This document shows, piece by piece, positions 32,822 to 56,649 of a stretch of 64,000 bases of DNA. The stretch is from Verrucomicrobiota bacterium. Lineage in GTDB: Bacteria > Verrucomicrobiota > Verrucomicrobiia > Verrucomicrobiales > Akkermansiaceae. How positions within the stretch are numbered: position 1 is the first letter of the stretch; each line of letters opens with the position of its first letter. Under the pieces are notes generated by a model. The model was not told the origin of the DNA, made no database searches, and saw only the letters and a list, made by a program, of their open reading frames with translations. The DNA lies in the NCBI GenBank assembly GCA_004293445.1, contig RDYP01000005.1:1-64000 (forward strand), in the 5' to 3' direction. The translations under genes were made by a program, and so were the position numbers.

Positions 32822-33220
32822 TTACCAGACGTGGCCGATGACTTCGCCGCCGAGTTGGCTGCGCTTGGCCTTGGCGCCAGTCATGACGCCCTTGGAAGTG
32901 GAGACGATGGCGATGCCGAGACCGTTGAGGACGCGTGGCATTTCATTGCCACCGCAATAGACACGGCGACCTGGCTTGGATACCCGCTTGAGATCGGTCA
33001 GCACGGGGCGGCCATCGACGTAACGGGCCTTGACCTTGAGCTGAGGATGAGCGGAGTCGGTGACGACTTCAAAGCCCCAGATATAGCCCTCTTCTTGGAG
33101 CACCTTGGCGATATCAGCCTTGATGCGGGAATAGGGGGCCAAAAACTGCTCATTGCCAGCGCGGCAGCAGTTTTTGAAGCGGGTAAGGAAATCGGAGATA
33201 GGATCGGAGAGAACGGCCAT
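32822..33220 (-). CDS. rpsH: 30S ribosomal protein S8
   Basis: 132 aa. Binds the central domain of 16S rRNA; in E. coli it also represses the spc operon. DPISDFLTRFKNCCRAGNEQF, VSKPGRRVYCGGNEMPRVLNGLGIAIVSTSKGVMT, and the ending RSQLGGEVIGHVW are family signatures. It directly follows rplE with only 30 bp between, so rpsN (S14), which normally lies there, is absent from this operon. Confidence 0.96.
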   Translation of the reverse strand: MAVLSDPISDFLTRFKNCCRAGNEQFLAPYSRIKADIAKVLQEEGYIWGFEVVTDSAHPQLKVKARYVDGRPVLTDLKRVSKPGRRVYCGGNEMPRVLNGLGIAIVSTSKGVMTGAKAKRSQLGGEVIGHVW

Positions 33221-33250
33221 GATGGTGGTTCCTTGAGAAGTTCAGGGGTC

Positions 33251-33835
33251 TCAGGCGGCGGCGCCTTCGGTGGATTCGTCGGCCTTCTTGAGGTCGCGGA
33301 ACGGAAGTCCCAGCTCAGTGAGCAGGGCGCGGCCCTCGTCGTCGGTTTTGGCCGAAGTGACGAAGATGATATCGAAACCGATGGTGCGCTTGATCTGATC
33401 GAGCTCGATTTCAGGGAAGATCGACTGGTCGGCGAAGCCAACGGCGTAGTTCCCGCGGCCGTCGAAATTCTTCGGCGAGATCCCGCGGAAGTCGCGGATG
33501 TTCGGCGCGGTGATGTTGATGAAGCGATGAAGGAACTCCCACATGCGAGGGCCGCGGAGAGTCACGCGGGCTCCGAGGGGCTCACCCTCGCGGAGCTTGA
33601 AGTTGGCAACGGCCTTCTTCGAAAAAGTGATCGACGGCTTCTGGCCGGTGATCTTGCCGATTTCGATCACGGCATCATCCACCGCGACCTTCCGGTCGGG
33701 GGCTTTGCCCATGCAGGAAGTGACCACGATCTTTTCGAGACGTGGAACTTGGTGGGGATTGGCGTAGCCGAGCTTCTCCTTGAGAGCCGGCACGACCTTT
33801 TCCTTATACTTGTTCAGTAGGACGGGTGTGCTCAT
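33251..33835 (-). CDS. rplE: 50S ribosomal protein L5
   Basis: 194 aa. Binds 5S rRNA. LLNKYKEKVVPALKEKLGYANPHQVPR, KIVVTSCMG, TGQKPSITFSKKAVANFKLREG, RVTLRGPRMWEFLHRFINITAPNIRDFRG and QSIFPEIELDQI with TIGFDIIFVTSAKTDDEGRALL are all typical. About 15 residues longer than E. coli L5 because of an acidic/Ala C-terminal tail. Followed directly by rpsH. Confidence 0.96.
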   Translation of the reverse strand: MSTPVLLNKYKEKVVPALKEKLGYANPHQVPRLEKIVVTSCMGKAPDRKVAVDDAVIEIGKITGQKPSITFSKKAVANFKLREGEPLGARVTLRGPRMWEFLHRFINITAPNIRDFRGISPKNFDGRGNYAVGFADQSIFPEIELDQIKRTIGFDIIFVTSAKTDDEGRALLTELGLPFRDLKKADESTEGAAA

Positions 33836-33894
33836 TTGATTTAGCGGGTCAGCGCTTGGTGTGTTGCGCTTAAGCGCGGGCCAGGACCGGAGTC

Positions 33895-34119
33895 TCAGCC
33901 CAGTTTCTTTACATTGGAAATGTGAACGGGAGCGTTCTGCTCGACGATACCGCCGTCAGGATTCTTTTCGGAGGCCTTGGTGGCCTTCTTGACGGTGCGG
34001 CCGCCCTCGACAACGACCTTGCCTTTTTCAGCATCGACGGAAAGCACGGTGCCGCGCTTGCCCTTGTGATTGCCGGCGATGATCTCGACTTGGTCGCCTT
34101 TTTTGACGTGAGTCTTCAT
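33895..34119 (-). CDS. rplX: 50S ribosomal protein L24
   Basis: 74 aa. The KOW motif is clear ([24 protein letters not shown]), followed by [15 protein letters not shown] and [13 protein letters not shown]-like ending ([14 protein letters not shown]). An early-assembly protein at the exit-tunnel side. The ATG at 34119 gives the usual MKTHVKKGD start; the frame's earlier ATG at 34173 would add 18 unlikely residues. Shorter than E. coli L24 (104) by its C-terminal part. Confidence 0.94.
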
Positions 34120-34153
34120 GGAAATGGATTCGGTGGGGAAGTGGAGCGTGGGC

Positions 34154-34519
34154 TCAGAGCACCTCGGGCGCAAGAGAGACGATCTTCATGAACTGCTTTT
34201 CACGCAGTTCGCGGGCGACAGGTCCGAAAATGCGGGTGCCTTTCGGGTTGTTGTCCTTGTCGATGACCACGATCGCGTTGCCGTCGAAGCGGAGAACCGA
34301 GCCATCGGAGCGGCGGATCGGGAAAGCGGTGCGGACCACCACGGCCTTCACGACCGAACCCTTCTTGACCGAAGCGGTCGGGATCGAATCGCGAATGTGA
34401 GCGGTGATGATGTCGCCAACCTGGGCGGTGCGGGAGCGCTTGCCGAGGACACCGATCATCTTGGCGGATCGGGCACCGGTGTTATCGGCGACCGTAAGAA
34501 GGGATTCCATCTGGATCAT
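34154..34519 (-). CDS. rplN: 50S ribosomal protein L14
   Basis: 121 aa. [26 protein letters not shown] is the standard opening; [27 protein letters not shown] and [28 protein letters not shown] complete the fold. L14 takes part in intersubunit bridges and binds the silencing factor RsfS in other bacteria. Normal length and place. Confidence 0.97.
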
Positions 34520-34568
34520 GGCAGAAAGGGAGTTTGTGTTGGGATAATCGGGCGGACCGGCCGAGCTC

Positions 34569-34841
34569 TTAGTGCGAGAGGACCTTCTCGAGCGACCAGC
34601 GCTTGAGTTTGGAGAGAGGGCGGGTTTCGACGATGCGGACCTTGTCGCCGATCTGGGCTTCGCCGTTTTCGTCGTGAACGTAGTACTTCTTGGACCGCTT
34701 GACGATCTTGTTGAAGCGGGGGTGCGGAACGCGTGCGATGTGCTCGACCACGAGGGTCTTGCTCATCTTGTTGGAAGTGACCACGCCGACGCGGGTCTTG
34801 CGGACGTGCGCGGTGGTTTCCTGCTGGGGCTGCTCGCTCAT
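34569..34841 (-). CDS. rpsQ: 30S ribosomal protein S17
   Basis: 90 aa, OB-fold. [51 protein letters not shown] and [17 protein letters not shown] are signature segments. An early 16S rRNA-binding protein. There is a short Gln-rich N-terminal addition. Confidence 0.96.
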
Positions 34842-34879
34842 GGAACTGATATCGCTGATGGTTGCTGGTGGCGGAGTGC

Positions 34880-35083
34880 TCAGGCCTTGTTGCGGCGTTC
34901 GGTAAGCACGGTTTGGACGCGGGCAGCCTCGCGGCGGACCACGCGGATGCGGGCGGCATTTTCAAGCTGCCCGGTCACCTTTTGGAGTCGGAGGGCGAAA
35001 TTTTCCTCCTTGAGATCGCGGAGCTTGGACTCGAGTTCCTTGATGGAGAGCTCGCGGATGTCCTTGGTCTTGGTGGTGGCCAT
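34880..35083 (-). CDS. rpmC: 50S ribosomal protein L29
   Basis: 67 aa, two-helix protein near the tunnel exit. [55 protein letters not shown] splits into the usual helices with the LRLQ/TGQLEN turn. Normal position between rplP and rpsQ. Confidence 0.95.
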
Positions 35084-35107
35084 GTCTGGGAATCGTTAAA
35101 AGGTTGC

Positions 35108-35527
35108 TCAGGCGTGCGGATTGCGGACGACGAAGCGGGTGGGCAGACCGAGCTTGTAGGAAGCGAGGCGCATCGCCTCCTTGGCCTGGGACTCGGGAAC
35201 GCCGGCGACTTCGAACAGCATGTTGCCGGGACGGATCACAGCGACCCAGGCCTCGACAGCACCCTTACCCTTACCCATCCGGGTTTCAGGTGGACGCGCG
35301 GTGATCGACTTGTGTGGGAAGATCCGGATCCAGACCTTTCCTTTACGCTTCAGGAAGCGGTTGATTGCGATACGGCAGGCTTCGATCTGACGGTTGGTCA
35401 TCCAACCGCGATCAAGTGCCTGAAGGCCGAAATCACCGAAGGCGACGGTGGTTCCACGTTGCGCATTGCCGGCGCGGCTGCCGCGGTGCGACTTGCGGAA
35501 CTTCGTGCGTTTGGGCATCAAGGGCAT
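35108..35527 (-). CDS. rplP: 50S ribosomal protein L16
   Basis: 139 aa. Core segments: [77 protein letters not shown]. The Met-free loop around the conserved Arg of RMGKGKG is the peptidyl-transferase-facing part. It has the best Shine-Dalgarno in the operon (AGGAGGA, 35535-35541). Start at 35527 rather than the ATG nine bases downstream because of that spacing. Confidence 0.95.
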
Positions 35528-35534
35528 GGCTCAG

Positions 35535-35541
35535 TCCTCCT
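35535..35541 (-). promoter_or_regulatory. Strong Shine-Dalgarno of rplP
   Basis: AGGAGGA on the minus strand, seven bases before the rplP ATG. It stands out because nearly all other genes in this operon lack any Shine-Dalgarno-like motif. Confidence 0.7.
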
Positions 35542-35573
35542 ATGGGAAAATGGTTCGAATTGAAATGGGCGGA

Positions 35574-36290
35574 TTAGTTGCGAGGGCGGCCCGGACCACG
35601 GTTATCGCGATTGTCGCGGCGGTCGCGACGGTCACCACCGCGCTCAGGGCGTGGGGAGCTACCATCGTCTTCCTTCTTGTTGACCCAGCACTTGATGCCA
35701 ATGACACCGTAAACCGTGCGGGCTTCGGCAAAGCCGTAGTCGAGAGGAACGCGGAGGGTTTGCAAGGGGACCTTACCCTCGCGATACCACTCGGAGCGGG
35801 CGATGTCGGCACCGCCGAGGCGACCGGCGCAGCGGATCCGGATGCCCTCGGCACCGAAGTCCATGGCAGTTTGCACGGCACGCTTCATGGCGCGGCGGAA
35901 AGAAATCCGTCGCTCAAGCTGGACGGCGACCTGCTCGCAGATCAACTGGGCATCGAGCTCAGGCTTGCGAATTTCGACGATGTCGATCTTCACCTGGGCA
36001 CCCTTGCAGATATCGGAGAGCTCCTTGGTCATGCGCTCGATTTCCGACCCCTTACGACCGATGATGAGACCGGGACGCGAGGTGTGCAGGGTGACGCGGA
36101 CGCTGTTCCAAGCGCGCTCGATGACCACGCGGGCAAGAGCGGCGAACTGCAAGCGCGAGCGCATGTAGCCACGGATCTTGAGGTCTTCGTGAAGCTTTTC
36201 GGCGTAATCCTTGCCGGCGGCGAACCACTTGGAGCGCCAGTCTTTGGAGACGGCGAGGCGGAAACCGATGGGGTTGACTTTTTGGCCCAT
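35574..36290 (-). CDS. rpsC: 30S ribosomal protein S3
   Basis: 238 aa. MGQKVNPIGFRLAVSKDWRS start, KH domain with RPGLIIGRKGSEIERMT, and the C-terminal RAMKRAVQTAMDFGAEGIRIRCAGRLGGADIARSEWYREG with GKVPLQTLR. It lines the mRNA entry site. The last about 28 residues are an Arg/Asp/Gly-rich repeat tail (DRRDRRDNRDNRGPGRPRN), not present in E. coli S3. The ATG at 36290 is the family start; the open frame upstream lies over the end of rplV. Confidence 0.95.
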   Translation of the reverse strand: MGQKVNPIGFRLAVSKDWRSKWFAAGKDYAEKLHEDLKIRGYMRSRLQFAALARVVIERAWNSVRVTLHTSRPGLIIGRKGSEIERMTKELSDICKGAQVKIDIVEIRKPELDAQLICEQVAVQLERRISFRRAMKRAVQTAMDFGAEGIRIRCAGRLGGADIARSEWYREGKVPLQTLRVPLDYGFAEARTVYGVIGIKCWVNKKEDDGSSPRPERGGDRRDRRDNRDNRGPGRPRN

Positions 36291-36315
36291 GATGAAGTGC
36301 GTTAGGTAGATTGAA

Positions 36316-36711
36316 TCAGGCTTCCGTGGTGGCGGCCTTGGTGGAGACGTTGACTCGCTTCGTCTTCGCGGCGACCTCAGGGGCTTCGGCGAGGGTGATC
36401 GAGATGTGGCTGGTGCGCTTGCGGATCGCTCCGGCAGAGCCCTTGGCACGCGGAGAGAAGCGCTTCAGGACCGGACCGGCACCAATAACGGCTTCCTTAA
36501 CGACCAGCGATTCGGCGCTGAGCGAGAAGTTGTTCTCGGCATCGGCCATGGCGGCCTTGAGGGTCTTGTTCAGGTGATAGGCAGCCTTCTTCGGAGTGAA
36601 GGTGAGAATGTCGAGGGCGCTCGACACGGGCAGCCCCTGGATTTCACGGGCGACGTCGCGCGCCTTCTTCGGGGAGAGGGCGACGTATTTGGTGGTGCTC
36701 TTGACTTCCAT
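36316..36711 (-). CDS. rplV: 50S ribosomal protein L22
   Basis: 131 aa. SPKKARDVAREIQGLPVSSALDILTFTPKKAAYHLNKTLKAAMADAENN is the standard N-part; VGAGPVLKRFSPRAKGSAGAIRKRTSHISITL-type sequence forms the beta-hairpin that lines the exit tunnel (here IGAGPVLKRFSPRAKGSA). A Thr/Ala/Lys-rich tail of about 18 residues is extra. It is separated from rpsS by an unrelated gene, unlike in other bacteria. Confidence 0.95.
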   Translation of the reverse strand: MEVKSTTKYVALSPKKARDVAREIQGLPVSSALDILTFTPKKAAYHLNKTLKAAMADAENNFSLSAESLVVKEAVIGAGPVLKRFSPRAKGSAGAIRKRTSHISITLAEAPEVAAKTKRVNVSTKAATTEA

Positions 36712-36753
36712 GGAATCGGGTCGGTGAGGGCGTTTGGAGATGGCCGTTTGGCC

Positions 36754-37464
36754 TTATTCAGTGATGAGAATGGCGGAGTCGCCGAGGCGAACCGTGCTTG
36801 CGCCGGATTCGAGCTCCTCGACAAAGGCACCGCATACGTTGCGGCGGACGTCGGCTACGATGGCGGAGCCGAATGGTTGTTCCCCGCGGGTGAGGCGGTA
36901 GGTGGTGCCGATGCGGGCACCCTGGCTTTCCCCGACGTTGAAGACGAGAAGGCCGCTTTCCGAATCGATGCTCACCACCTTGGCCGTTCCGGCGGAACCG
37001 GAGACTGCGGGGGCGGGCTTCTGGCGGAGTCCGAGGACTTCGTCAAGCTCCCTGATGGCAGTTTCTACACGAAGCCGGGATTCCGGGTCGGCGGCAACTG
37101 CCTGGCGGGTGAATTCAGTGGCGGCTGTGACCAAGCCGGTGGAAGCGCTTTCGAGGCTGGAGACGCGGCTGCCGAGGACCTGAAGGTCCGAAGTCGCCTG
37201 CACCAACCGCTCATCGCCGCCATCGAGCAAGTCGCGGCCGAGGGCTTCGAGACGCTGGCGAACGCGGGCGAGCTGCTCGGAGGCTTCCTTTTCGGCGCGG
37301 TTCGCCTCGAGGAGACTCTTTTCGAGCGACTCGTTTCGTTCGCGCAACTCCTCGAGACCGGCATCGAGGGCCCCGGCGCTCGTCTCCTGTGCGGCACAAA
37401 CCCACGCCCCCGCGGACAGTCCGAAGACCGTGGCGGCGAGAGTGCGTGTTTGTGAAGTGCGCAT
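36754..37464 (-). CDS. Exported coiled-coil protein inserted in the S10 operon
   Basis: 236 aa. Signal peptide MRTSQTRTLAATVFGLSAGAWVCA (cleavage near 24-26), then two long heptad-like helices (about 33-90: LEELRERNESLEKSLLEANR, EQLARVRQRLEALGRDLL; and about 88-145), then a C-terminal beta domain (about 160-236: VVSIDSESGLLVFNVGESQG, IGTTYRLTRGEQPFGSAIV, VRLGDSAILITE) like small SH3-like domains in planctomycete and verrucomicrobial envelope proteins. It lies between rpsS (25 bp) and rplV (42 bp), same strand, inside the ribosomal operon, where no such gene is usual. Composition matches its neighbours. A role in the envelope or in coupling growth to the cell wall is only a guess. Confidence 0.85.
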   Translation of the reverse strand: MRTSQTRTLAATVFGLSAGAWVCAAQETSAGALDAGLEELRERNESLEKSLLEANRAEKEASEQLARVRQRLEALGRDLLDGGDERLVQATSDLQVLGSRVSSLESASTGLVTAATEFTRQAVAADPESRLRVETAIRELDEVLGLRQKPAPAVSGSAGTAKVVSIDSESGLLVFNVGESQGARIGTTYRLTRGEQPFGSAIVADVRRNVCGAFVEELESGASTVRLGDSAILITE

Positions 37465-37489
37465 GAGACGAAGTCGGGGCGGCTATAGA

Positions 37490-37759
37490 TTACTTCTTGC
37501 CGATACCGCCGTGGGCGCGGAACAGGCGTGTCGGTGCGAATTCACCAAGCTTGTGGCCGACCATGTTTTCGGTGACGTACACCGGGACGAAGGTCTTGCC
37601 ATTGTGGACGGCGAAGTTGAGGCCGACGAAGTCCGGAGTGACCATCGAGGCACGGCTCCAAGTTTTGATCGGCTTCTTGTCGCCAGCGGCGGCAGCGGCG
37701 TCGATCTTGGCCAGGAGCTTCTGGTCGATGTACGGACCCTTTTTGAGAGAGCGGGGCAT
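37490..37759 (-). CDS. rpsS: 30S ribosomal protein S19
   Basis: 89 aa. [16 protein letters not shown] start, [47 protein letters not shown] ending the core in the usual EFAPTR form. Binds the 16S head with S13. Length and start are normal; what is unusual is that its downstream neighbour is not rplV. Confidence 0.96.
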
Positions 37760-37777
37760 GGGTGCTTGGGGTAAAGA

Positions 37778-38620
37778 TTAGCGCTTCTTGTTGTGGCGGC
37801 TTTCGACGATGAAGGTGCTGGTGACCTTCTTCGGCTTACGGGTCTTCTGGCCCTTCGCGTGGCCCCAGGGGCTCGTAAGGTGCTGACGACCACCACCGGA
37901 TTTGGACTTGCCTTCGCCACCACCGTTCGGGTGGTCGACGGGGTTCATGCACATGCCACGAACGGTCGGGCGAACGCCCTGCCAGCGGGTGCGGCCAGCC
38001 TTACCGGAAACCTCGTTCATGTGATCGCGGTTGCCAACAGCACCGATGGTGCAGAAGCAAAGTTCATTGAAACGACGGATCTCACCGGATGGCATCTTGA
38101 CCAGAGCCCAGCCGCCTTCGCGGTTGGAGAGGATGGCCTGCTGACCGGCGGAGCGAGCCACCTTGCCACCGTTGCCGGGGATCAACTCGATGTTGTGGAT
38201 CGCGGTTCCAAGTGGGACGCTCTTGAGAGGCATCGCATTGCCCACCTTCGGAGCGACCTTCTCGCCGGAAACCACAGTGGCTCCGGTCTCAAGGCCGGCT
38301 GGAGCCAAGATGTAGCTCTTTTGACCGTCCTTGTATTGAATCAAGGCGATGCGGCAGGTGCGGTTTGGATCATACTCGATGCCGACCACGGTGGCAGGCA
38401 CGTCGTATTTGCCGCGCTTGAAGTCGATCAGACGGTAGTGGCGCTTGTGGCCACCGCCGATGTGACGGCAGGTGATCCGGCCAGTATTGTTGCGGCCGCC
38501 GCTGCGTTTGAGCGGGGTGAGAAGGCTCTTCTCCGGCTTGTGCTTGGTGATTTCGTCAAAGGACGGAAGCACCTTGTAGCGTTCGGACGGTGTATTGGGT
38601 GTGAACTCCTTGAGAGACAT
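37778..38620 (-). CDS. rplB: 50S ribosomal protein L2
   Basis: 280 aa. Signatures: [29 protein letters not shown] in two parts, [24 protein letters not shown], and [21 protein letters not shown]. The first His of VDHP (E. coli His229 without Met) is kept; the second His of the E. coli HPHGGG motif is Asn here. L2 is needed for subunit joining and peptidyl transfer. Normal place after rplW. Confidence 0.96.
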
Positions 38621-38661
38621 GGCTCGCTTGAGGGTTGTTCGGGGTTAGCCGGGTTAAAAAA

Positions 38662-38946
38662 TCAGACGAGGTCGAGGGATTCGCCTTCCTTGAGGCGGAC
38701 GACTGCCTTCTTCCAATGGTTGGTGCGGCCCTCGTCGGCGCGGCGCTTGCGCCTGGCCTTACCGAGGTAGTTGAGAGTGCGGACGGCAGCGACCTTCTTG
38801 CCCAGGAGGGTTTCGACGGCACGCTTGATCTCGAGCTTGTTGGCCTTGCGGTCCACTTCGAGGATCACCTCGTTGTTGGACTCTTGAAGCATGGTGGCCT
38901 TCTCGCTGAGGCGGACGTTCTTGATGACTTGGTAGATGTCTTTCAT
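38662..38946 (-). CDS. rplW: 50S ribosomal protein L23
   Basis: 94 aa. MKDIYQVIKNVRLSEKATML, VILEVDRKANKLEIKRAVETLLGKKVAAVRTLNYLGKARR and the final VVRLKEGESLDLV match the family. It is the exit-site docking point for trigger factor and SRP. Normal length. Confidence 0.95.
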   Translation of the reverse strand: MKDIYQVIKNVRLSEKATMLQESNNEVILEVDRKANKLEIKRAVETLLGKKVAAVRTLNYLGKARRKRRADEGRTNHWKKAVVRLKEGESLDLV

Positions 38947-38964
38947 GGCGCGGTTCAGCGAAAA

Positions 38965-39573
38965 TTAGGCGGTGCGCTGGGCGAGGGTTTCGAAGGCGTC
39001 TTCCACCATCAGGATGGAATCCGCGTGGAGCAGCTCCTCGACGTTCAAGCTCTCGGCGGTGACCAACTGGGCCCAGCCGACGTTGCGGGCAGCGAGGTAG
39101 GTGGTTTCGTCAAAGGACTTGGCGACAACGAGCACCTTCTTCGGAGCGAAATCAGCGGTGATTGCAGCGATGAAGGACTTCGTCTTGCCGTCGGCGATCG
39201 AGAAAGAGGAGACCGTCTTGATCAGGCCTTCGCGGACGAGATCACCCAGAACGCGGCGCAGCGCGAGCTTACGGACGTTCTTCGGCACGTGCTTCGAGTA
39301 ATCCCGGGGACGGGGACCGAAGACCACGCCACCACCGACGAAGATCGGAGCGCGTTTGTCGCCGTGACGGGCGTTGCCGGTGCCCTTCTGCTTGTAGATC
39401 TTCTTGTTGTTACCACGGACTTCGCCGCGGGTCTTGGTGTTGGCGGAGCCTGTGCGACGGTTCGCGCGGTAAGCGGTAACGAGGTCGTGAACGGCTTGGG
39501 CGCCCTTATCGGGCTCGCCGAGGACGATGTTGGCGCCTTGGGCGTCGTCAGCAGTGAAAGTTTTCGCGGGCAT
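38965..39573 (-). CDS. rplD: 50S ribosomal protein L4
   Basis: 202 aa. VHDLVTAYRANRRTGSANTKTRGEVRGNNKKIYKQKGTGNARHGDKRAPIFVGGGVVFGPRPRDY contains the tunnel-lining loop; the globular part follows (LRRVLGDLVREGLIKTV, VLVVAKSFDETTYLAARNV). In E. coli it represses its own operon. Normal place after rplC. Confidence 0.95.
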   Translation of the reverse strand: MPAKTFTADDAQGANIVLGEPDKGAQAVHDLVTAYRANRRTGSANTKTRGEVRGNNKKIYKQKGTGNARHGDKRAPIFVGGGVVFGPRPRDYSKHVPKNVRKLALRRVLGDLVREGLIKTVSSFSIADGKTKSFIAAITADFAPKKVLVVAKSFDETTYLAARNVGWAQLVTAESLNVEELLHADSILMVEDAFETLAQRTA

Positions 39574-39614
39574 GACTGGGATGCGAGTGAGAGTTGAGGT
39601 TCTGACGCGCGGCC

Positions 39615-40256
39615 TCAGGCGGCGGCGGTCTTCTTCTTGGCGGGACGGATGGTGACAAAGCCGCCCTTGGAACCGGGAACGGCACCCGAGATAAGGATCA
39701 CACCGTCTTCGGGGCGGACTGCAACCACCTTGAGGTTTTGGACAGTGCGTGGCACATCGCCCATGTGTCCTGGCATCTTCTGGTTCTTCCAGACGCGACC
39801 CGGGGTGGAGCGGCAGCCGATGGCGCCAGTCCGGCGGTGCATCATGGAGCCGTGAGTCATCTTGAGACCGCCGAAGCCGTGGCGCTTGACAGCACCTTGG
39901 AAGCCACGGCCCTTACTGGTGCCGATCACGTCGACCCACTGTCCGGCGGTGAAGGTCTCCAGTCCGGGGTGAGTCGCCGGGGCGGCTTGGTTAGCCTCGA
40001 AGCGGAACTCCTGAATGAGGTATTTCGGGGTCGAGCCGTGCTTCTTGAAGTGGCCGAGCGAAGGCTTGTCCACGCGGGACTCCTTCTTGTCGCCGTAGCC
40101 GACCTGGACGGCGGAGTAGCCGTCGTTTTCGAGGGTTTTGACCTGAAGGCAGGTGTTGCCGCTCACCTCAATAACGGTGACGGGGATCATGGACTGGGTG
40201 GCCGCGTCGAAGAGACGGGTCATACCGAGTTTTTTGCCGAGGAGTCCGAGTGACAT
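39615..40256 (-). CDS. rplC: 50S ribosomal protein L3
   Basis: 213 aa. MSLGLLGKKLGMTRLFD start; WVDVIGTSKGRGFQGAVKRHGFGGLKMTHGSMMHRRTGAIGCRSTPGRVWKNQKMPGHMG includes the loop that reaches the peptidyl-transferase centre, with the Gln (GFQG) that is methylated in some bacteria. The ATG at 40256 fits the family; the frame's earlier ATG would add 25 residues over intergenic DNA. Confidence 0.95.
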   Translation of the reverse strand: MSLGLLGKKLGMTRLFDAATQSMIPVTVIEVSGNTCLQVKTLENDGYSAVQVGYGDKKESRVDKPSLGHFKKHGSTPKYLIQEFRFEANQAAPATHPGLETFTAGQWVDVIGTSKGRGFQGAVKRHGFGGLKMTHGSMMHRRTGAIGCRSTPGRVWKNQKMPGHMGDVPRTVQNLKVVAVRPEDGVILISGAVPGSKGGFVTIRPAKKKTAAA

Positions 40257-40305
40257 GGTGGACGTGAGATGGATGATTGGGAGAACGAGTGGATGCGGGA
40301 TCGAC

Positions 40306-40614
40306 TCAGATGCGGATGGCGATATCGACACCTGCTGGCAGGTTGAGCTTCTTGAGCTCGTCCACGGTGCGGGCGGTCGGGTCGACGATGTCGAGCACGC
40401 GCTTGTGAGTGCGGATTTCGAATTGCTCCATCGACTTCTTGTTGACGTGGACCGAGCGGTTCACGCTGAACTTTTCAATGCGGGTAGGGAGCGGGATCGG
40501 GCCGGCCACCTTGGCGCCGGTGCGCTTGGCGGTCTCGACGATCTCCGCTGCGGAGCGGTCGATCGCGCGGTGGTCGAAAGCGCGCAGGCGGATGCGGATC
40601 TTCTGGTTTTCCAT
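40306..40614 (-). CDS. rpsJ: 30S ribosomal protein S10
   Basis: 102 aa. [73 protein letters not shown] is a textbook S10. It also serves as NusE in antitermination. It follows fusA with a 44-bp gap; tuf, usually located there, is missing. Confidence 0.97.
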
Positions 40615-40658
40615 GGCGGTGGATGTGTGTTGAGAGTTCGGTTGGTTCTGGGTGCGCG

Positions 40659-42806
40659 TCAGTGGCCGCGGTCGGTGACAATTTCGGAAACGATGTTTCC
40701 CGGCACTTGTTCAAAGTGGGACGGGGTCATCGAATAAGAGGCACGACCGGACGAGAGGGTTCGGACCGCGGTCGAGTAACCGAACATTTCCTTCAAGGGG
40801 ACATTCGCGCGAATGACGGCGAGCTTACCCTTGTTTTCCATGTTCTGGATCTGCCCGCGGCGGCGGTTGAGGTCGCCCATCACGTCGCCCTGGTAGTCGT
40901 CCGGAGTGGAGACTTCCACGGCCATGATGGGCTCGAGGAGAATAGCTTGAGCCTTCTTGAAGGCATCCTTCATGGCGAAGATTGCCGCCATGGTGAAGGC
41001 GTTCTCGTTGGAATCGACTTCGTGGAAAGATCCGCCGAGGACATCGACGTGAACATCGATCACAGGATAGCCGGCAACAATGCCATTGATCATGGCCTCG
41101 TTGACGCCCTTGAAAACGGCATTGTGGTAGTCCTTGGGAATTTCGCCGCCGACAATCTTATTGTCGATGGTGAGACCCTTGCCCTTTTCGTTGGGTCGGA
41201 CGGCGAGGCGCACGTGACCGTATTGGCCACGGCCACCGGACTGCTTGACCAGCTTGCCTTCGCCGGGAGCGGAGGCGGTGATGGTTTCGCGGTAAGCGAT
41301 TTGAGGGGCGCCAGTGTTGGCCTCGACCTTGAATTCGCGGCGGAGTCGATCGACGATGATCTCCAGATGGAGCTCGCCCATCCCTGAAATGATCGTCTGG
41401 CCGGTTTCCTCGTCGGTTTTGACCTGGAAGGTTGGATCTTCCTCGGAGAGACGGGAGAGAGCGTTGGCGAGCTTTTCCTGATCGACCTTGGTCTTCGGTT
41501 CGACTGCCATCGAGATGACAGGCTCAGGGAAAGTCGGCGGCTCGAGCACGACGTCGTAACCTTCCTTGGCGAGGGTGTCGCCCGTGGTGACGTTCTTGAG
41601 GCCGACCATCGCAGCGATATCACCGGCGTAGCAGGCATTGATATCCTTGTGCTCGTTCGCCTGAATTTGGATCAGACGACCGACGCGCTCGGAGCGGCGG
41701 GTGCGTGGGTTGTAGACGGTGTCGCCTTTGCGAATCACACCGGAATAGACCCGGAAGAAGACCAGCTTGCCGACGAACTTATCGGCCCAAAGTTTGAAAG
41801 CGAGAGAGCAGAACTTCTCGTTGTCGCTGGTGTGGACCTCGATCTTGTGCTCCTCGTTGTCGGGGTCCATGCCGACCATGGCCGGCAGTTCGAGAGGGCT
41901 CGGAAGATAGTCGACAACGGCGTCGAGCAGATATTGCACGCCCTTATTCTTGAAGGCGGAGCCACCGGCGACGGGGACCAACTTGTTGGCGATCGTGGCA
42001 CGGCGGATCGCCTGCTTGAGGTCATCGCGGGTGATCGGCTCCTCCATGAGGAACTTTTCACCGAGGATATCATCGACGCTGGCGACGACGTCGACGAGTT
42101 CCGCGTAGGCCTCTTCAGCGACAACTTTCTGGGCGGCGTCGAGATCGAGGATCTCGTAGGTGGAACCGAAAGTCGCGTCATCCAGATAGCGGATGGCCTT
42201 TTGGTTGACGACATCGATTTGACCGGAGAGGGACTCCTCGGCTCCGATCGGGATCAAAATGCGAACGGCATTGGCACCGAGCTTCTCTTTGATCTCTTGG
42301 AAGACATTGTCGAAGTTCGCACCGACCCGGTCCATCTTGTTGACGAACACGATCCGGGGAACGTGGTATTTGGTAGCCTGCCGCCAAACCGTTTCGGTCT
42401 GGGGTTGAACACCGGCGACACCACAGAAAACGACGATCGCGCCGTCGAGCACCCGCAACGAACGCTCCACCTCGGCGGTGAAGTCGACGTGACCGGGAGT
42501 GTCGATGATATTGACGCGCTGCTTCTGGCCGACGAAGGACTTCGTGATGCCCTCCTCCTCGCGCTGCCACCACTCAGTGGTAACGGCGGCCGAGGTAATG
42601 GTGATGCCGCGTTCGCGCTCCTGCTCCATCCAGTCGGTCGTGGCGGCACCATCGTGCACTTCCCCGATCTTGTGAATCATCCCCGTATAGAAGAGGATGC
42701 GCTCGGTGAGCGTGGTCTTCCCGGCGTCGATGTGCGCCGCAATCCCAATGTTCCGCGTCCGCTCAAGCGGATACGGACGATCAGGATTGTTGTGATTGGA
42801 AGACAT
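40659..42806 (-). CDS. fusA: Elongation factor G
   Basis: 715 aa. The translocase GTPase. P-loop [19 protein letters not shown], switch [30 protein letters not shown] specificity motif, domain IV with [10 protein letters not shown]-type sequence and domain V with [15 protein letters not shown] and [18 protein letters not shown]-like end. Standard length for EF-G1. It sits in the str operon between rpsG and rpsJ. Confidence 0.97.
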
Positions 42807-42840
42807 GGTGGAGAGAGATCGGACGGACCTCGAATCGGAA

Positions 42841-43314
42841 TTACCAGCGGAAGTGGGCGAAGGCGCGGTTGGCTTGGGCCATCTTGTGAACGTCGTCGCG
42901 CTTGCGAACGGAGGAGCCCTGATTATTGGCGGCGTCCTTCAGTTCGTTGGCGAGAGCGACGTGCATCGGCGTGCCCTTGCGGCCACGGGCGTAAGCGACG
43001 ATCCAGCGCAGAGCGAGGGACTCGGAACGAGCGGGATCGACTTCGAGCGGGACCTGATAGGTAGCACCACCGACGCGGCGGCTCTTCACCTCAACGCGTG
43101 GCTTGGCGTTCTCGATGGCGCGGGTGACGACCTCGAGGGGATCGACGGTTTCGACGCCTTCGCTCGCCTTATCAATGGCGGCGTAGACGATGCGCTCTGC
43201 GAGGGAGCGCTTGCCGTCGAGCATCACCTTGGAAATGAGGTGGCCGACGAGGGAGCTGTCGTAGCGGGAGTCCCGGCGGTCGGGCTTGGTGAATGTGCGC
43301 TTGCGGCGTGACAT
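42841..43314 (-). CDS. rpsG: 30S ribosomal protein S7
   Basis: 157 aa. [81 protein letters not shown], and the beta-hairpin residues [41 protein letters not shown]. Initiates 30S head assembly. Normal order after rpsL. Confidence 0.96.
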
Positions 43315-43347
43315 GATCGTGATGGATGAGGTGTGACGGCGCGTGGC

Positions 43348-43764
43348 TTACTTCTTCTTGCCACCCTTGGCAGGAGCGGCAGCGGCCTGGCCCGGCTTCG
43401 GACGCTTGGCACCGTACTTCGAACGGCTTTGACGACGCTTGTCGACGCCGAGGGTGTCGAGCGAACCACGGACGATGTGGTAGCGGACACCCGGAAGGTC
43501 TTTCACCCGGCCGCCACGAACGAGAACGATCGAGTGCTCTTGAAGGTTGTGACCTTCACCGCCGATGTAGGCGATCACTTCGTAACCGTTGGTCAGGCGG
43601 ACCTTGGCGACTTTCCGGAGAGCCGAGTTCGGCTTCTTCGGCGTGCGGGTCATCACCTGGAGGCAGACGCCGCGGCGCTGCGGGCAATTGCTCATCGCCG
43701 GAGACTTCGATTTCTCGATCGGAGTCTGTCGTCCTTTTCGGACGAGCTGATTGATGGTCGGCAT
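43348..43764 (-). CDS. rpsL: 30S ribosomal protein S12
   Basis: 138 aa. First gene of the operon. [15 protein letters not shown] start; decoding-centre loop [22 protein letters not shown] with the wild-type lysine linked to streptomycin sensitivity, and [22 protein letters not shown] with the Asp that is often methylthiolated. It has a ten-residue insert before the Cys ([16 protein letters not shown]) and a Lys/Ala tail. The ATG at 43764 is the family start. Confidence 0.96.
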
Positions 43765-43929
43765 AGGATTCCTGCGTGTTTCGGTGTTCGCTGGGATGCG
43801 TCGCCGGGCAGGAAGCGAGAGAAATCCCTCGCAAGAGCCTGTTGTCCGGAGCTGCACCCGATAGTGTTTGGAGAATGAAGCGCACTGACTGGCTGAGAGC
43901 CGACGGTCAGGGAGCGATGTGGGGCGGCG

Positions 43930-43957
43930 AATCTAGGGATCGCGACCGACCTGGCAA
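43930..43957 (-). promoter_or_regulatory. Possible sigma-70-type promoter for the ribosomal operon
   Basis: On the minus strand, TTGCCA (43952-43957) is followed 16 bases later by TAGATT (43930-43935), five and four matches to consensus. An A/T-rich stretch upstream (43965-44015) could act as an UP element. It would give a leader of about 160 bases before rpsL. Confidence 0.4.
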
Positions 43958-44122
43958 GACCTATTTAGAAAAAATTTGCGCCGTTGATTTTGGTTAAGGA
44001 ACCCTGATTTTTTAGTCTTTTCGATGAAGGCCCATTGGGACTTTGAACCATGGCGCGAGATCCAAGCTGAGATTCGGCGCACAGATCGAGGATCGAGAGG
44101 ACGGCGCGGACCCGGCGCGCAG

Positions 44123-44143
44123 CGCTAGGAAAAAAGCCTAGCG
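44123..44143 (-). terminator. Hairpin downstream of the tRNA
   Basis: CGCTAGG (44123-44129) pairs with CCTAGCG (44137-44143); the loop holds six T on the minus strand. It lies 8 bp past the tRNA CCA end. The U run is in the loop rather than after the stem, so a processing or weak termination role is possible. Confidence 0.35.
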
Positions 44144-44151
44144 GATCATCT

Positions 44152-44226
<75 letters not shown>

Positions 44227-44437
44227 GTTCCAAGTGACACCCTTGCGGGCGGGCGGAGGCTCTAGCTTTCGCGAAGCGGACTGTCCACCGAAAAATCGCT
44301 TGAGAACTCGGGGTGTTGCGAGTCGCGCGCTCTTCGCGGGGATTCGAGCGGTCGGAGAACGGAGCGAAAAGGATCCGCCAACAGAGCTTGGAGCCCCCTC
44401 CCCTTGCGCGATGACGATCCGATGACAAGCTAGCCGA

Positions 44438-44941
44438 ATGAGTCCGCTTCGTTTCCTCGCCGCCGCCGTCGCCCCACTGGGGATCACGCTTTCCACTGCG
44501 GCGGCGCTCGAGCTTGGGGCTGCTTTGCCCGCGGTGACGGTGCTCGATCACGAGGGCCACGAGCTGCGGCTGGCTGAGAGCGCCGGCAGGGGTTGGACGC
44601 TGGTGTATTTCTACCCGAAGGCCGACACGCCGGGCTGCACCAAGCAGGCCTGTTCGCTGCGGGATGCCTTCGCGACCTTGAGCGAGCGGAAGGTCACGGT
44701 CTTCGGCGTGAGCATGGACGACGTCGCTGCCCAGAAAGCTTTCCACCAGAAGTATCGTCTGCCTTTTTTGCTGTTGGCCGATGAGAAAGGCGTGGTGGCA
44801 GATGCCTTCGGCGTCCCGCACGCGTTGGGATTTGCGAAGCGGCAGGCTTTTCTTTTCAAGGATGGCAAACTCGTCTGGCGGGACTTGTCGGCATCGACCG
44901 AGCAACAGGCCGCGGATGTGCTGTCACAGATCCAACCCTGA
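44438..44941 (+). CDS. bcp: Exported BCP/PrxQ-type peroxiredoxin
   Basis: 167 aa. Reduces peroxides. Peroxidatic Cys C67 lies in YPKADTPGCTKQACSLRD and the resolving Cys C72 follows five residues later, the atypical two-Cys PrxQ form. VFGVSMDDVAAQKAFHQKYRLPFLLLADEKGVVADAFGV is the usual continuation. The start MSPLRFLAAAVAPLGITLSTAAA is a signal peptide, so it probably works in the periplasm, whereas most BCPs are cytoplasmic. The next gene is lpxK, 93 bp downstream. Confidence 0.9.
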   Translation: MSPLRFLAAAVAPLGITLSTAAALELGAALPAVTVLDHEGHELRLAESAGRGWTLVYFYPKADTPGCTKQACSLRDAFATLSERKVTVFGVSMDDVAAQKAFHQKYRLPFLLLADEKGVVADAFGVPHALGFAKRQAFLFKDGKLVWRDLSASTEQQAADVLSQIQP

Positions 44942-46272: not shown

Positions 46273-47637
46273 TCAGCGCCAGCCATCGCCCGACGGCACT
46301 CGCTTCGAGCCTTTCACTTCCCGACTCCAAGCCTGCCAGTCGCGCTGCATATCCTGAACCTTTTCCGGGTACTTCGCCGCCAGATCTTGAGCTTCAGATC
46401 GGTCAGAACGGAGATCGAACAAGCCAGGCTGAGACAACTCGACCGCGCCCGAAGACTCACCAAATACCAGTTTCCAATCTCCTTTTCGGATAGCCCACTG
46501 ATCCTCGTATCCCCAGCATAACATCCGATGCGGATCGCCACCGCACCCTTTGAGAAAAGGAAGAAGATCAATTCCATCGAGTGGCCAAGCGGCGTCCGGC
46601 CGCAGCCCCGCGAGCTTCAGCGCGGTCGCAGTGAGATCCATCTGGATCACGGGCCGCGTCTCCATCCCGGGTTCCAGAACGCCGCTCCATTTCATGAACA
46701 TGGGCACTCGAATCCCTCCCTCCCACGTCTGTCCCTTACCCCCGCGCAAAGGCGTGTTCGTCGCGCCGTTCGGAGCGTTGCGCGTGATCGGTCCACCATT
46801 GTCACTCAAGAAGCAAATCAAAGTATCCTTCTCCAAGCCCGTCTCGTGCAGCGCAGCAAGCACCCGCCCGATGTTTTCGTCCATCGCCGCAAGCATCGCC
46901 GCATAGATCCGGCGACGCGGGTCCGCGATTTTTGAAAATCGTGCCAATCCATCCACCGGAGCCTCCAGCGGCGTGTGCACCGCATTGAAAGACAAGTAGA
47001 GAAAAAATGGCCGAGCACCATCCCGCTGCCCGCGAATGAAATCCACAGCCTCGCGCCCGAAGACATCGGTCACATACTCCTTCGGCTCCACCGCATCACG
47101 GTTGCGGAAAATCCCCGAATAGCGCATCCGCTCCTGAGACAACGCGGAGGTTCGATCCGGCAGATAGTGGCATTCTCCTCCAAGCACGCCGAAGAAGTGC
47201 TCAAAGCCACGCCGCAAGGGGTGATCGGCTCCTTCCTCCCCGAGATGCCACTTGCCGATCAAGGCGCAGCGATAACCCGCAGCAGAAAGATAGGAAGCGA
47301 TGGTCGGGACCTCTGCCACCAAACCCGAACCGCCGGGCCGCACCCAGTCGTCCACTCCGTCGCGCTGATGATAGCGCCCTGTCATCAATCCCGCCCGCGA
47401 GGGACTGCATACCGGGCCGGTCACGTAGGCATCCGTGAACCGAATCCCCGCCTTGGCAATCGAATCGATGTGCGGCGTTGGAATGTCCACGCAACCCTGC
47501 ACACCGCAGTCGGCATAGCCCAGATCATCGGCGACGATGAACAAGATGTTCGGCTTGCCCAGAGCGGACTGCCCGACAGATGAGGCGATGAGAAAGACGA
47601 GGCATCGGGCGAAAAAAGAGCGAAAGATGGCATTCAT
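46273..47637 (-). CDS. Exported sulfatase (arylsulfatase family, formylglycine type)
   Basis: 454 aa with a signal peptide (MNAIFRSFFARCLVFLIASSVGQSALG). PNILFIVADDLGYADCG supplies metal-binding Asp pairs; C77-S-P-S-R with AGLMTGRYHQR is the formylglycine-generating site (Cys type); GKWHLGEE gives the Lys and His of the active site; FLSDNGGPI gives the second metal Asp-Asn. It hydrolyses sulfate esters, probably from sulfated polysaccharides. Together with the fucosidases further along, this fits use of sulfated fucans or mucin-type glycans (inference). Its maturation enzyme is not in the window. Confidence 0.93.
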   Translation of the reverse strand: MNAIFRSFFARCLVFLIASSVGQSALGKPNILFIVADDLGYADCGVQGCVDIPTPHIDSIAKAGIRFTDAYVTGPVCSPSRAGLMTGRYHQRDGVDDWVRPGGSGLVAEVPTIASYLSAAGYRCALIGKWHLGEEGADHPLRRGFEHFFGVLGGECHYLPDRTSALSQERMRYSGIFRNRDAVEPKEYVTDVFGREAVDFIRGQRDGARPFFLYLSFNAVHTPLEAPVDGLARFSKIADPRRRIYAAMLAAMDENIGRVLAALHETGLEKDTLICFLSDNGGPITRNAPNGATNTPLRGGKGQTWEGGIRVPMFMKWSGVLEPGMETRPVIQMDLTATALKLAGLRPDAAWPLDGIDLLPFLKGCGGDPHRMLCWGYEDQWAIRKGDWKLVFGESSGAVELSQPGLFDLRSDRSEAQDLAAKYPEKVQDMQRDWQAWSREVKGSKRVPSGDGWR

Positions 47638-47902
47638 GGGAAAAGAAAGCGCGGGCCGGCGGTCATTGGTAATTTTCCCAGCCTCGACAATCTACGGTTT
47701 CGGTAAATCAAGTTCCGCGATTTTGCCGTCAAAACCCAGCCATGCGAAGCCCGCCCTCGTTCCTGCAAAGCCCTAACAGAAATCCGGCTGGTTAAGCACC
47801 TCATCGAAATAAGGGTTACCATCGAGGTCCCAAAGCCGAAGGCGACGGAAAGCAGGAGCAGCCCAATGTTTTCAAGCCCCCGACGCATGAATCAGTGGCG
47901 GA

Positions 47903-49477
47903 TCACTGGACCGGCACGACCCGGACTTTGCCGCTTTTCTCGACGATGGTGAACTGGCCGCCGGTGGTCTTGGCGAGTTCCTTCATGCCGGCGTTGGCCT
48001 TGGGCTCCATGAGGGCGACGGTGTTGACGACGATGCGCTTGGAGCGGGCCTTCTGGCCCAGGCTGCGGGCGAGCTTGACGGTATCGATGCCCTCCACCGC
48101 GCCATCGGTCATGAAGAAAATCACCTCCGGGGTCGGCTTCATGGCAAAGGCCATCTCAAGGGGATTGTCCCAGGTGGTGCCAGCGACCAAGGGGGTCTTC
48201 TTGATGTGGCCGAGCGATTTCTGGCGTTCCGCCGTGGTCCCGGGCAGCCAGTCGGGAACTTGGCGACGTCCCTTGGGACTCCACCGGTACACGTTGGACG
48301 GAGAAGTCCATTCGTAGCGGAAGCGAGCGTCCTTCACGGTGGCGCTTTTGCGATCCGAAGGCATCGACACATGATCTCCGGCGACCCACACCGGACCAGA
48401 GAAGAAGATCATCTGATACTGCATTCCGATCGACAGTTGCTCGATCGATTTCGCGAGCTCCTTCCGCATCAGACGATCGCGGTCGCCCTTCATCGATTGC
48501 GAAAAGTCGATCACGTAGGCGACCCGCTGTGCCTTGATGTTTTGTTGGAAAAACGAAGCTCCGCCGCCGCCCGTGCCATCGCCATCGCCGGTGCCCCAGC
48601 CTTCGCTGAAATCGTCCCCAACCCCGAATTCCATGGAGGGCTCGGTGACATCGAAGTCGGGAACCGGGACCGCGACCGGACTGGCCGTGGCCGCGGCGAT
48701 GACCCGCGAGCTGGAACTCGAAGGGCGGGAGGGCTTGCGCTGAATGCTGTCGGAGATCCGTTTTACCGGGGTCGGTTCATCGGCCGCGACGGCAGCCGAG
48801 TAGCTGACGATGACCGGCGACTCCTTGACCAAGGCGGGCAGGATGATGAAGGCGAGGATCAGAGAAACGAGGATGATCGACAGCAAGGCAATGATCATGC
48901 TGGCAACAGCGGACTGGCGGCGCTGACGGCGCAGGATGGCATCGGCCGCGTGGACCGAGAGACGCGACTCTGTCGACGGGTCGGAGACGGGAGCTGGCAC
49001 GGTCCGCAAGGCAGGGGCGACGGCTCGCGGGACGGCTGGCGTGAGGATGGGGGCGGCCGTTCCTAAAATCGGCTCCGCTTGGGCGACTGGCTCCGCTTGG
49101 GCGACTGGCTCCGCTTGGGCGACTGGCTCCGCTTGGGCGACTGGCTCCGCTTGCACGACCGGCTCCGCTTGCACGACTGGCTCCGCTTGGGCGACCGGCT
49201 CCGCTTGGGCGATCGGCTCCGCTTGAACGATCGGCTCCGCTTGAACGATCGGCTCCGCTTGAACGACCGGCTCCGCTTGGGCGAGGACTTGGATCGCGGC
49301 GAGGAGCTTTTTGCGGTGGCCGAGAGGATTGACGCCGCATTCTTTCAGGTCATCGGAGTCGAGGCCGAGTAAGGTTTCGCGGTCGATTTCCTGATCGAGA
49401 AAAGCTTGGGTGTATTGAGCGAGGCCGAGGCTTTCAAGCCATGCGGCGAGATCGAACGAGGAAGGCTTGGGTTTCAT
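47903..49477 (-). CDS. SAM domain - AQAEP repeat - TM - VWA-type protein
   Basis: 524 aa. Residues 5-65 form a SAM domain (FDLAAWLESLGLAQYTQAFL, LGLDSDDLKECGVNPLGHRKKLLAAI). Residues about 69-142 are twelve copies of a six-residue unit AQAEPV/I, encoded by an 18-bp tandem repeat. After a Pro/Ala linker, a transmembrane helix (about 190-215) leads to a C-terminal von Willebrand A-like domain (about 310-520): VIDFSQSMKGDRDRLMRKEL has the MIDAS-like DxSxS, with later Asp in MTDGAVEG. So the SAM/repeat part is probably cytoplasmic and the VWA domain exported. SAM domains are rare in bacteria. Function unknown; it may act in a scaffold or signalling complex. Confidence 0.8.
   Translation of the reverse strand: MKPKPSSFDLAAWLESLGLAQYTQAFLDQEIDRETLLGLDSDDLKECGVNPLGHRKKLLAAIQVLAQAEPVVQAEPIVQAEPIVQAEPIAQAEPVAQAEPVVQAEPVVQAEPVAQAEPVAQAEPVAQAEPVAQAEPILGTAAPILTPAVPRAVAPALRTVPAPVSDPSTESRLSVHAADAILRRQRRQSAVASMIIALLSIILVSLILAFIILPALVKESPVIVSYSAAVAADEPTPVKRISDSIQRKPSRPSSSSSRVIAAATASPVAVPVPDFDVTEPSMEFGVGDDFSEGWGTGDGDGTGGGGASFFQQNIKAQRVAYVIDFSQSMKGDRDRLMRKELAKSIEQLSIGMQYQMIFFSGPVWVAGDHVSMPSDRKSATVKDARFRYEWTSPSNVYRWSPKGRRQVPDWLPGTTAERQKSLGHIKKTPLVAGTTWDNPLEMAFAMKPTPEVIFFMTDGAVEGIDTVKLARSLGQKARSKRIVVNTVALMEPKANAGMKELAKTTGGQFTIVEKSGKVRVVPVQ
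49071..49286. repeat. Twelve tandem 18-bp repeats inside the SAM-VWA gene
   Basis: Twelve contiguous units of the type GGCTCCGCTTGGGCGACT start at 49071, 49089, 49107 and so on every 18 bp to 49286. Variation is limited to the four to six bases after CCGCTTG. They code the AQAEPV/I units on the minus strand. Such arrays usually vary in copy number between strains. Confidence 0.95.
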
Positions 49478-49499
49478 CTCGATGGCTTGCGGCGGGGGA

Positions 49500-50825: not shown

Positions 50826-51919
50826 GGATTTCCGAGGACGGGAATGATGGGGATCTGGACGTTGCTGCTGATGCGGCCGTTCTTCTTGTAGCCGTCGGTC
50901 GCGCCGAAGAGATAGGTCGGTTCGCCGTCCTCGATCAGCAGGGCCGGGCGTTCGAGGTTGCTGTTGCTTTTCGCGCCACCGGCGAGGGCGAAGTGGTGCT
51001 CGATGATCTTCGGGTGAGTGGCAGGGTTCCAATCGAGTCCATCGTCGGACTGAAACAGGCAGATGCCGCCGGAGGATCCGGTGAAGCTGCCGACCACATC
51101 GCGGGTGACGGCGTAGTAGCGGTTGCCGTACTTGCGGCTGTGGAAGATGAAAGGGTCTTCGGCGACCATCCAGTGCTTGCCGGGTTTTTCGGCCTCGAAG
51201 ATCCGGCCGGGAGTCTTGATGTAGGGGCCTTCCGGCGACTTCGCGAGGGCCGCACCGTAGCGGACATTCCCGCCCATCTCCTTGCCCTTGATGTATTGCA
51301 CCGCCTTGTAAACCAAGAGCACACCGCCATCCGGCCGCATGCAGGCGGCGGGGTTGGTGACGCAGAGCGAGTCGAAGGACTTCTGGTCATCGGTGATGTC
51401 GACGATGGGCCGATCGAAGCGTTTCCACGGACCTTCGGGTTTCTCGGCGATCGCGAGCCCGATGCGCTGGTGGTTGCGATGCATCGGGTAACTTTTGCCG
51501 TCGCCGTGGTTGCCCATGTAGTAGAGGTAATACTTGCCGTCGTGGAAGAAGGCGTTGGCATTGTGGGTCACGTCGCCGTCCCAATATTTCTTGCCCGTGG
51601 CGGGGTTGGGATCGCGTTTTGGCAAGGCGACATTGACATGGGTGTAGGGCCCTTCCGGACGATCGGCGACGGCGTAGGCGATCTCCGAGTGAAGGGCCCA
51701 GCCGGGGGCGAAGCCGACTTTCACCGGCCAGCGGGAATAGAAGAGGTGGTACTTGGCATCGGGCCCCTTCACCGGCGCGCCGCACCACACGAAGTAATCC
51801 TTCAGCGCGAAGCGGTTGGCGGCGGGCAGCGCTTGGACCCGGGCACCGAGGTCGAGCTCGCGGGCGGAGAGAGGCGCGACGCAGGCGAGGCCGAGCAGGG
51901 CTGTTAGAAAGCGTTTCAT
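50822..51919 (-). CDS. Exported five-bladed-propeller glycoside hydrolase (GH43/GH117-like)
   Basis: 365 aa with signal peptide [21 protein letters not shown]. Propeller features: [114 protein letters not shown] and the repeated P-x-G-P-(W/Y) turns of GH43/62/117/130-type enzymes. Acids for catalysis are plausible in these loops but not assigned. Start and stop overlap the neighbours (ATGA and GTGA), so it is translated with the GH95 and GH29 enzymes and probably cleaves another bond of the same glycan. Family number uncertain. Confidence 0.75.
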
Positions 51920-54102: not shown

Positions 54103-54113
54103 GGAAAAAGAGA

Positions 54114-56486: not shown

Positions 56487-56649
56487 GGGTTGGGAAAATG
56501 AGCAGTGGCGCGGATCAGGACCGCAGAGAGTTGGGAGATACGACGGCCGGCGACTGTGAATCTTCGGCCTTTTAGTTACCATGGGATAATCCGCATCCTT
56601 TCTGCGTTTATGCGCAATTCGTGAAGCTCGTTTTTGAATGCGGAAGGCT

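Follow-up and report, generated by a model that had tools for sequence, protein, structure and literature searches.

A conserved gene for an exported-type protein precedes rplV in the S10 ribosomal gene cluster of most Verrucomicrobiota examined

The stretch of DNA analyzed here (hereafter the window, 64,000 nucleotides from a member of the Akkermansiaceae, phylum Verrucomicrobiota) carries an S10 ribosomal gene cluster in which rpsS and rplV are separated by a further gene. In E. coli K-12, the same two genes are 14 bp apart and have no gene between them. The first-pass annotation had placed a 236-aa gene at this point, on the same strand as its neighbors, and the coordinates of the open reading frames agree in every particular: the gene, here called X, begins with ATG, has an open frame, and lies 25 nt from rpsS and 42 nt from rplV, with all three genes on the minus strand (Table 1). 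A full-length search of the window's own genome returned X as the single match. X is under purifying selection, its dN/dS being 0.31-0.37 against four relatives (L031, L032, L034 and L035; G, C, L, f and g numbers are our labels for genomes, contigs, loci, families and genera), and in comparison with L031 and L032 the C-terminal domain shows the least nonsynonymous change. An Rfam scan of positions 33000-44500 found tRNA only.

Table 1. Gene X, its parts and its neighbors, in window coordinates
Feature	Position	Strand	Basis
rpsS (S19)	37490..37759	-	PF00203 match
rpsS-X gap, 25 nt, without promoter-like or terminator-like site	37465..37489	-	scan
Gene X, 236 aa: exported-type protein, middle rich in heptads, C-terminal domain conserved	36754..37464	-	open frame, family-wide homologs, purifying selection
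N-terminal signal segment of X, residues 1-26	37387..37464	-	sequence; 35/36 family members hydrophobic here
First coiled-coil stretch of X, residues 30-80	37225..37377	-	heptad periodicity, p 0.0035 vs shuffles
Second helical stretch of X, residues 81-150, less certain coiled coil	37015..37224	-	periodicity, p 0.002 vs shuffles, residues 80-150
Conserved C-terminal domain of X (probably beta), residues 160-236, phylum-wide part	36757..36987	-	alignments A1, A2, A4; family-left-out HMM
X-rplV gap, 42 nt, without promoter-like or terminator-like site	36712..36753	-	scan
rplV (L22), conserved neighbor of X	36316..36711	-	PF00237 match, G000:C4:36391-36696
rpsC (S3), following gene in run	35574..36302	-	ORF, named by eye; order kept in relatives

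Two other features of the window were recorded in passing. In E. coli, the rpsN gene (S14) separates rplE from rpsH; here it is missing from that place (window 32822-33835), rplE and rpsH being only 30 nt apart. The ribosomal run stops after rpsH, and the next long open reading frame is on the opposite strand and has no Pfam match. Positions 46273-63882 include a 2410-aa open reading frame that encodes NHL repeats as well as six MBG_3 stretches. GH95, GH43-like, alpha-L-fucosidase and sulfatase genes lie nearby, and the region resembles a locus for the degradation of a glycan rich in fucose.

X has the appearance of a Sec-exported protein. When the N-terminus was scored by a 13-residue mean of at least 1.6 within the first 45 residues, a criterion used in place of a dedicated signal-peptide predictor, a hydrophobic segment was present in 35 of the 36 family proteins whose starts had been chosen by position alone, which supports the signal peptide originally proposed. 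Over a set of 92 proteins the segment was found in 90, against 3 of 92 when residues 46-90 were scored, although the starts in alignment A2 (56 of the 80 loci L086-L165) had been chosen partly by hydrophobicity. Since 37 of the 92 still scored as hydrophobic after their first 45 residues had been shuffled, this result is partly explained by composition. In X itself, a likely signal peptidase I site can be read by eye near VCAA-Q within the signal segment. We rejected the idea that X is a lipoprotein, as inspection by eye showed no lipobox in X and the Cys close to the cleavage region is not a conserved residue.

Of the two long coiled coils proposed for the rest of the protein, the first stands and the second is less certain. 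Both stretches show a 3.5-residue hydrophobic periodicity (Table 1), but the second contains two prolines and five glycines, and we therefore regard the first as a good coiled coil and the second as a helical stretch of lower certainty. The small beta domain that had been proposed corresponds to a strongly conserved C-terminal region of about 75 aa, its beta character being putative. Within the window's family this region leads only narrowly, with a mean column identity over 36 proteins of 0.60 (residues 160-230) compared to 0.51 and 0.58 for the helical stretches and 0.40 for the signal segment. It is the part of the protein that aligns phylum-wide: across 67 domains one glycine is invariant and three more are nearly so. 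X proteins range from 112 to 402 aa, and the sampled members from f3, f5, f9, f12, f13 and f37 consist of barely more than a signal segment and the C-terminal domain (112-130 aa in the short lineages). Since some lineages have been reduced to approximately these two elements, the C-terminal domain appears to be the core, and probably the working part, of the protein.

By its strand, its short gaps and its conserved position, X can be taken as a presumptive member of the S10 operon. Between positions 36200 and 37900 we found no terminator-like site (shuffled sequences averaged 2.3) and no promoter-like site, the latter scan being for the sigma-70 consensus only (shuffles gave 0.2); with these shuffled values, only the absence of terminators carries some weight. 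Measured against ribosomal genes, X has a codon adaptation of 0.53; the ribosomal genes themselves, each omitted in turn, reach 0.60-0.80, and the 26 other long open reading frames of the window have a mean of 0.435, with 20 of them below X and 6 above. The short same-strand gaps fit co-transcription, and the scan and codon results are compatible with it and with a moderate codon adaptation; they are proof of neither co-transcription nor high expression. The first-pass annotation held that X must share the ribosomal transcript; we would infer, in softer terms, that it probably does so, and that its level may be tied in this way to ribosome synthesis.

If the position of X were meaningful, the first-pass annotation had argued, it should be conserved across Verrucomicrobiota, and this is largely what was observed. 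Homologs of X are present in 112 of 117 genomes of the window's family, including all 92 of those with a completeness of 90% or more and a contamination of 5% or less (16 of 16 genera), and the order rpsS-X-rplV, on one strand, is seen at 54 of 54 family loci readable on both sides, the window included. These neighborhoods (L001-L055, of which 54 show the order and L054 is cut by a contig end) come from 49 of the 112 matched family genomes, the best 30 and a further 19 added for diversity, plus L031 and L032; among the 54, L033, L034 and L035 repeat L012, L016 and L007, judging by the lengths of their contigs. The X of L031, a MAG titled Akkermansia muciniphila, is 75-77% identical to that of the window; X identity for genus g3, which we take as Akkermansia, is 32-46%, and the L031 label may be wrong.

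Outside the family, a profile made from the family proteins gave matches in 132 of 288 phylum genomes, many of them inside the rpsS-rplV gap. For a sample of 119 non-family genomes from 38 families, picked by rplV score and not by X from among the better-scoring rplV matches listed (families f22, f23, f33 and others lie outside it), the stretch before rplV was compared with a domain HMM lacking the rows of that genome's own family, these rows being dropped from a common alignment, A4, that was itself built with all rows. X lies directly before rplV in 83 of the 119 genomes and in 29 of the 38 families (worst E 1.5e-8), while the same HMM test applied to the reverse strand gave 0 of 119. The distance from the end of X to the first aligned residue of rplV runs from a slight overlap up to 172 nt. 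This count leaves out ten loci chosen via an X or rpsS match, nine of which have X, as well as L163-L165, where no rplV was found. The domain also occurs in six of the loci dropped from A2, whose starts are awkward or whose ends are cut (L102, L104, L131, L135, L161 and L162). Together with the family genomes and loci counted above, the 83 genomes rule out a chance insertion. On a small tree of 168 columns with midpoint rooting, which includes the ten loci excluded from the 119 count, X is placed at the root and 10 changes are needed, compared to a mean of 33 and a minimum of 27 for shuffled data.

X is linked to rplV more than it is to rpsS. Where rpsS is contiguous with rplV, X is found in 39 of 64 genomes; where no rpsS is found upstream, X is still at rplV in 44 of 55. 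The loci of these 55 of 119 genomes include L109-L118, L134-L139, L290-L300 and others. Five split genomes, picked for having X, were read on both halves, and X was at rplV in all five and at rpsS in none; G156 is a split genome without X at rplV. The S10 cluster of these five is broken exactly between rpsS and X-rplV, an unusual place for a break in so highly conserved an operon. In two of the five, L290 and L294, the next upstream open reading frame is on the opposite strand, so that X leads the rplV unit there.

These figures bear directly on gene-order inertia, the main rival to the reading preferred below. The order of ribosomal operons is conserved for its own reasons, and part of the conservation of X may consequently be inertia. 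In its strict form, X would have landed before rplV in an ancestor and been kept because breakage of S10 is costly, with no functional tie between the genes. The existence of lineages in which X has been lost or moved is consistent with such a frozen accident, and the split clusters may trace to one or a few events, in which case the 44 of 55 genomes are not independent. Nevertheless, X stays with rplV where the cluster has been split and its sequence is under purifying selection; furthermore, co-transcription would couple the expression of the genes whether or not the coupling was selected. We consider a frozen accident unlikely, if the most serious of the competing explanations.

The 36 of 119 sampled genomes with no X before rplV are unevenly distributed. 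They comprise the whole samples of f4 (4/4), f17 (5/5), f24 (7/7), f39 (2/2) and genus g66 of f16 (10/10), the single-genome families f14, f36, f47, f53 and f60, and part of the samples of f10 (1/3), f27 (1/2) and f19 (1/2). Where rpsS is adjacent in these genomes, the rpsS-rplV gap is mostly 22-129 nt, with larger gaps in f39 and f47 (212-240 nt) and in f14 (580 nt, with no domain). A whole-genome search of the 36 for the domain located it elsewhere in 9 of 10 g66 genomes, in 4 of 4 from f4 and 2 of 2 from f39, and in the lacking genomes of f19, f27, f47 and f60. The same search found none in f17 (5/5), f24 (7/7), f14, f36, f53, the f10 genome and one g66 genome, nor in two small f7 genomes that were added to it. 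Outside g66, the matches could be either moved X genes or members of a related family; the f4 match at L182 looks by eye like the related family. Six g66 genes, three from the ten sampled genomes and three from further g66 genomes, were read and are X-like with varied neighbors. Second matches in other genomes likewise belong to the related same-domain family or are g66 X-like genes in varied places. The window's own genome has a tandem pair of other proteins sharing the C-terminal domain (L287:6193-7834, on G000:C7), each with an N-terminal hydrophobic segment and a long helical stretch, which adjoin an ABC exporter-like open reading frame (by eye), and related same-domain genes, often paired, are present in other genomes (L166-L169, L171, L178).

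Because g66 lacks X at rplV and yet has the domain elsewhere in nine of ten genomes, the position is not required, and because no domain was found in f17, f24 and the single f10, f14, f36 and f53 genomes, the protein is dispensable there. The arrangement that the first-pass annotation had named as evidence for a chance insertion (rpsS and rplV adjacent and X elsewhere) thus exists in part: the two genes adjoin without X in some lineages, and X-like genes lie elsewhere in one genus. Taken together, the 36 genomes without X and the one genus with X elsewhere make the position look ancestral and not obligatory. In the sampled phylum, X before rplV looks like the ancestral state, from which X was lost several times and, in one clear case, relocated.

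What the C-terminal domain resembles can be described only loosely, as no confident Pfam family was obtained for any of the 67 domains. FlgT_C (PF16538) matches 8 of 67 C-terminal domains at E <=0.1 (best 0.0022) and 5 of 67 full-length members at the same threshold; the window protein shows no match at a limit of E <=1, and the families listed for X include no further FlgT domain. In a profile search of the PDB, the full protein gave mostly coiled-coil matches and the domain on its own gave two weak matches, both to proteins named as LysM-domain proteins. One weak profile match is to the C-terminal part of TsaP (PDB 3jc8); it covers 36 positions of the domain, and the E for the chain is 0.004. 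TsaP, a periplasmic protein associated with secretins, differs from X in having LysM where X has a coiled coil or nothing: LysM was found neither in the window protein nor among the 25 most frequent of the 120 families seen in the 67 members. By description, and not by sequence or position, X may be likened to the CT421.2 homologs, reported as a PVC-wide protein of unknown function that is present in Verrucomicrobia (PMC3444138), both being lineage-marking.

A more specific identity was also considered, in which X would belong to MreC, or stand close to it, and function with the rod elongation machinery. MreC is laid out as an N-terminal hydrophobic segment, a coiled coil and then a beta domain, and the layout of X is similar; of the NCBIfam MreC models, one matches 3 of 67 members (best 1e-4) and another two match 2 and 1, and the MreC Pfam family (PF04085) matches 2 of 67 domains (best 0.0083). 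However, the window's own genome has a separate MreC at G000:C21, with an upstream open reading frame that reads as MreB by eye, whereas X lies in the S10 cluster and not in an mreB neighborhood. A profile comparison of A4 with the family's MreC was not significant (probability 3.5%, E 0.012, 15 columns), and the two g3 genomes searched, G002 and G028, have no MreC match and nonetheless have rpsS-X-rplV (L037, L051). The MreC searches and the non-significant profile comparison led us to reject X as MreC, and the idea seems to us scarcely credible.

The reading that we prefer, and hold to be reasonably probable, is that X is an ancestral envelope protein, periplasmic or membrane-anchored, which is co-transcribed with the S10 genes ahead of rplV-rpsC and whose supply follows ribosomal protein synthesis. 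The S10 message would yield X alongside L22 and S3, the signal segment would direct the export of X, and the C-terminal domain would act in the periplasm, with the coiled coil, where present, serving as an oligomerization element or a spacer. The faint likeness to FlgT_C and TsaP suggests that X could have a structural or assembly role in the cell wall or the outer membrane, and that the need for it would scale with growth rate. With the message under ribosomal control, the amount of such a factor would follow the rate of ribosome synthesis. The gene, its place, its conservation and that of its C-terminal domain, and the export-type N-terminus are established by the data above; a shared transcript, coupling to growth rate, the cell location and a part in envelope assembly are inferences from them.

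The proximity to rplV could also be imagined to matter in the opposite direction. L22 is a protein of the ribosome exit tunnel, and X might be a leader gene regulating rplV. One form of this would be a SecM-like arrest, with the translation of rplV controlled through the export of nascent X. A gene with a signal segment directly before the L22 gene, the short gaps and the leading position of X in L290 and L294 are all what such a leader would predict. On the other hand, the conserved part of X is the domain of about 75 aa and not a C-terminal arrest motif of the SecM type, the tails of X varying in both sequence and length; the distance to rplV also varies, as described above, and X-like proteins persist away from rplV in g66. 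Because conservation lies in the domain and not in the tail, and because g66 keeps X-like proteins off rplV, a SecM-like leader is very unlikely. A related and similarly improbable idea, which we mention for its consequences, is that control resides in the gene order itself: as nascent X is exported at the Sec translocon, it would pull the X-rplV-rpsC message to the membrane, or would act as a sensor of export capacity, and would thereby set the output of these ribosomal proteins. If this were true, envelope export capacity would gate ribosome synthesis across a phylum.

How bacteria match the growth of their envelope to ribosome-driven growth in biomass is an open question, and X is kept before rplV in most sampled lineages, even when the operon is split, which makes it a concrete candidate whose role as a hard-wired link between them can be tested. 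X also defines a conserved protein with no confident family assignment in 29 of 38 sampled families beyond the window's own. That most Verrucomicrobiota examined carry X before rplV suggests that an envelope part may be made in step with ribosomes. Among the matches listed in the open-licence PMC literature, titles and the beginnings of abstracts contain no report of a gene between rpsS and rplV. On those matches, the presence of a widely conserved exported-type gene inside the S10 operon would be new, while non-ribosomal genes in ribosomal operons as such are already known. Bacterial examples are secY, adk and map in the spc and alpha operons, which are likewise non-ribosomal genes made with ribosomal proteins, and secY provides an envelope-related precedent. 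The comparison has its limits: secY encodes the translocon itself, whereas X looks like a protein that is exported, lies in the part of S10 before rplV, and has been traced within one phylum.
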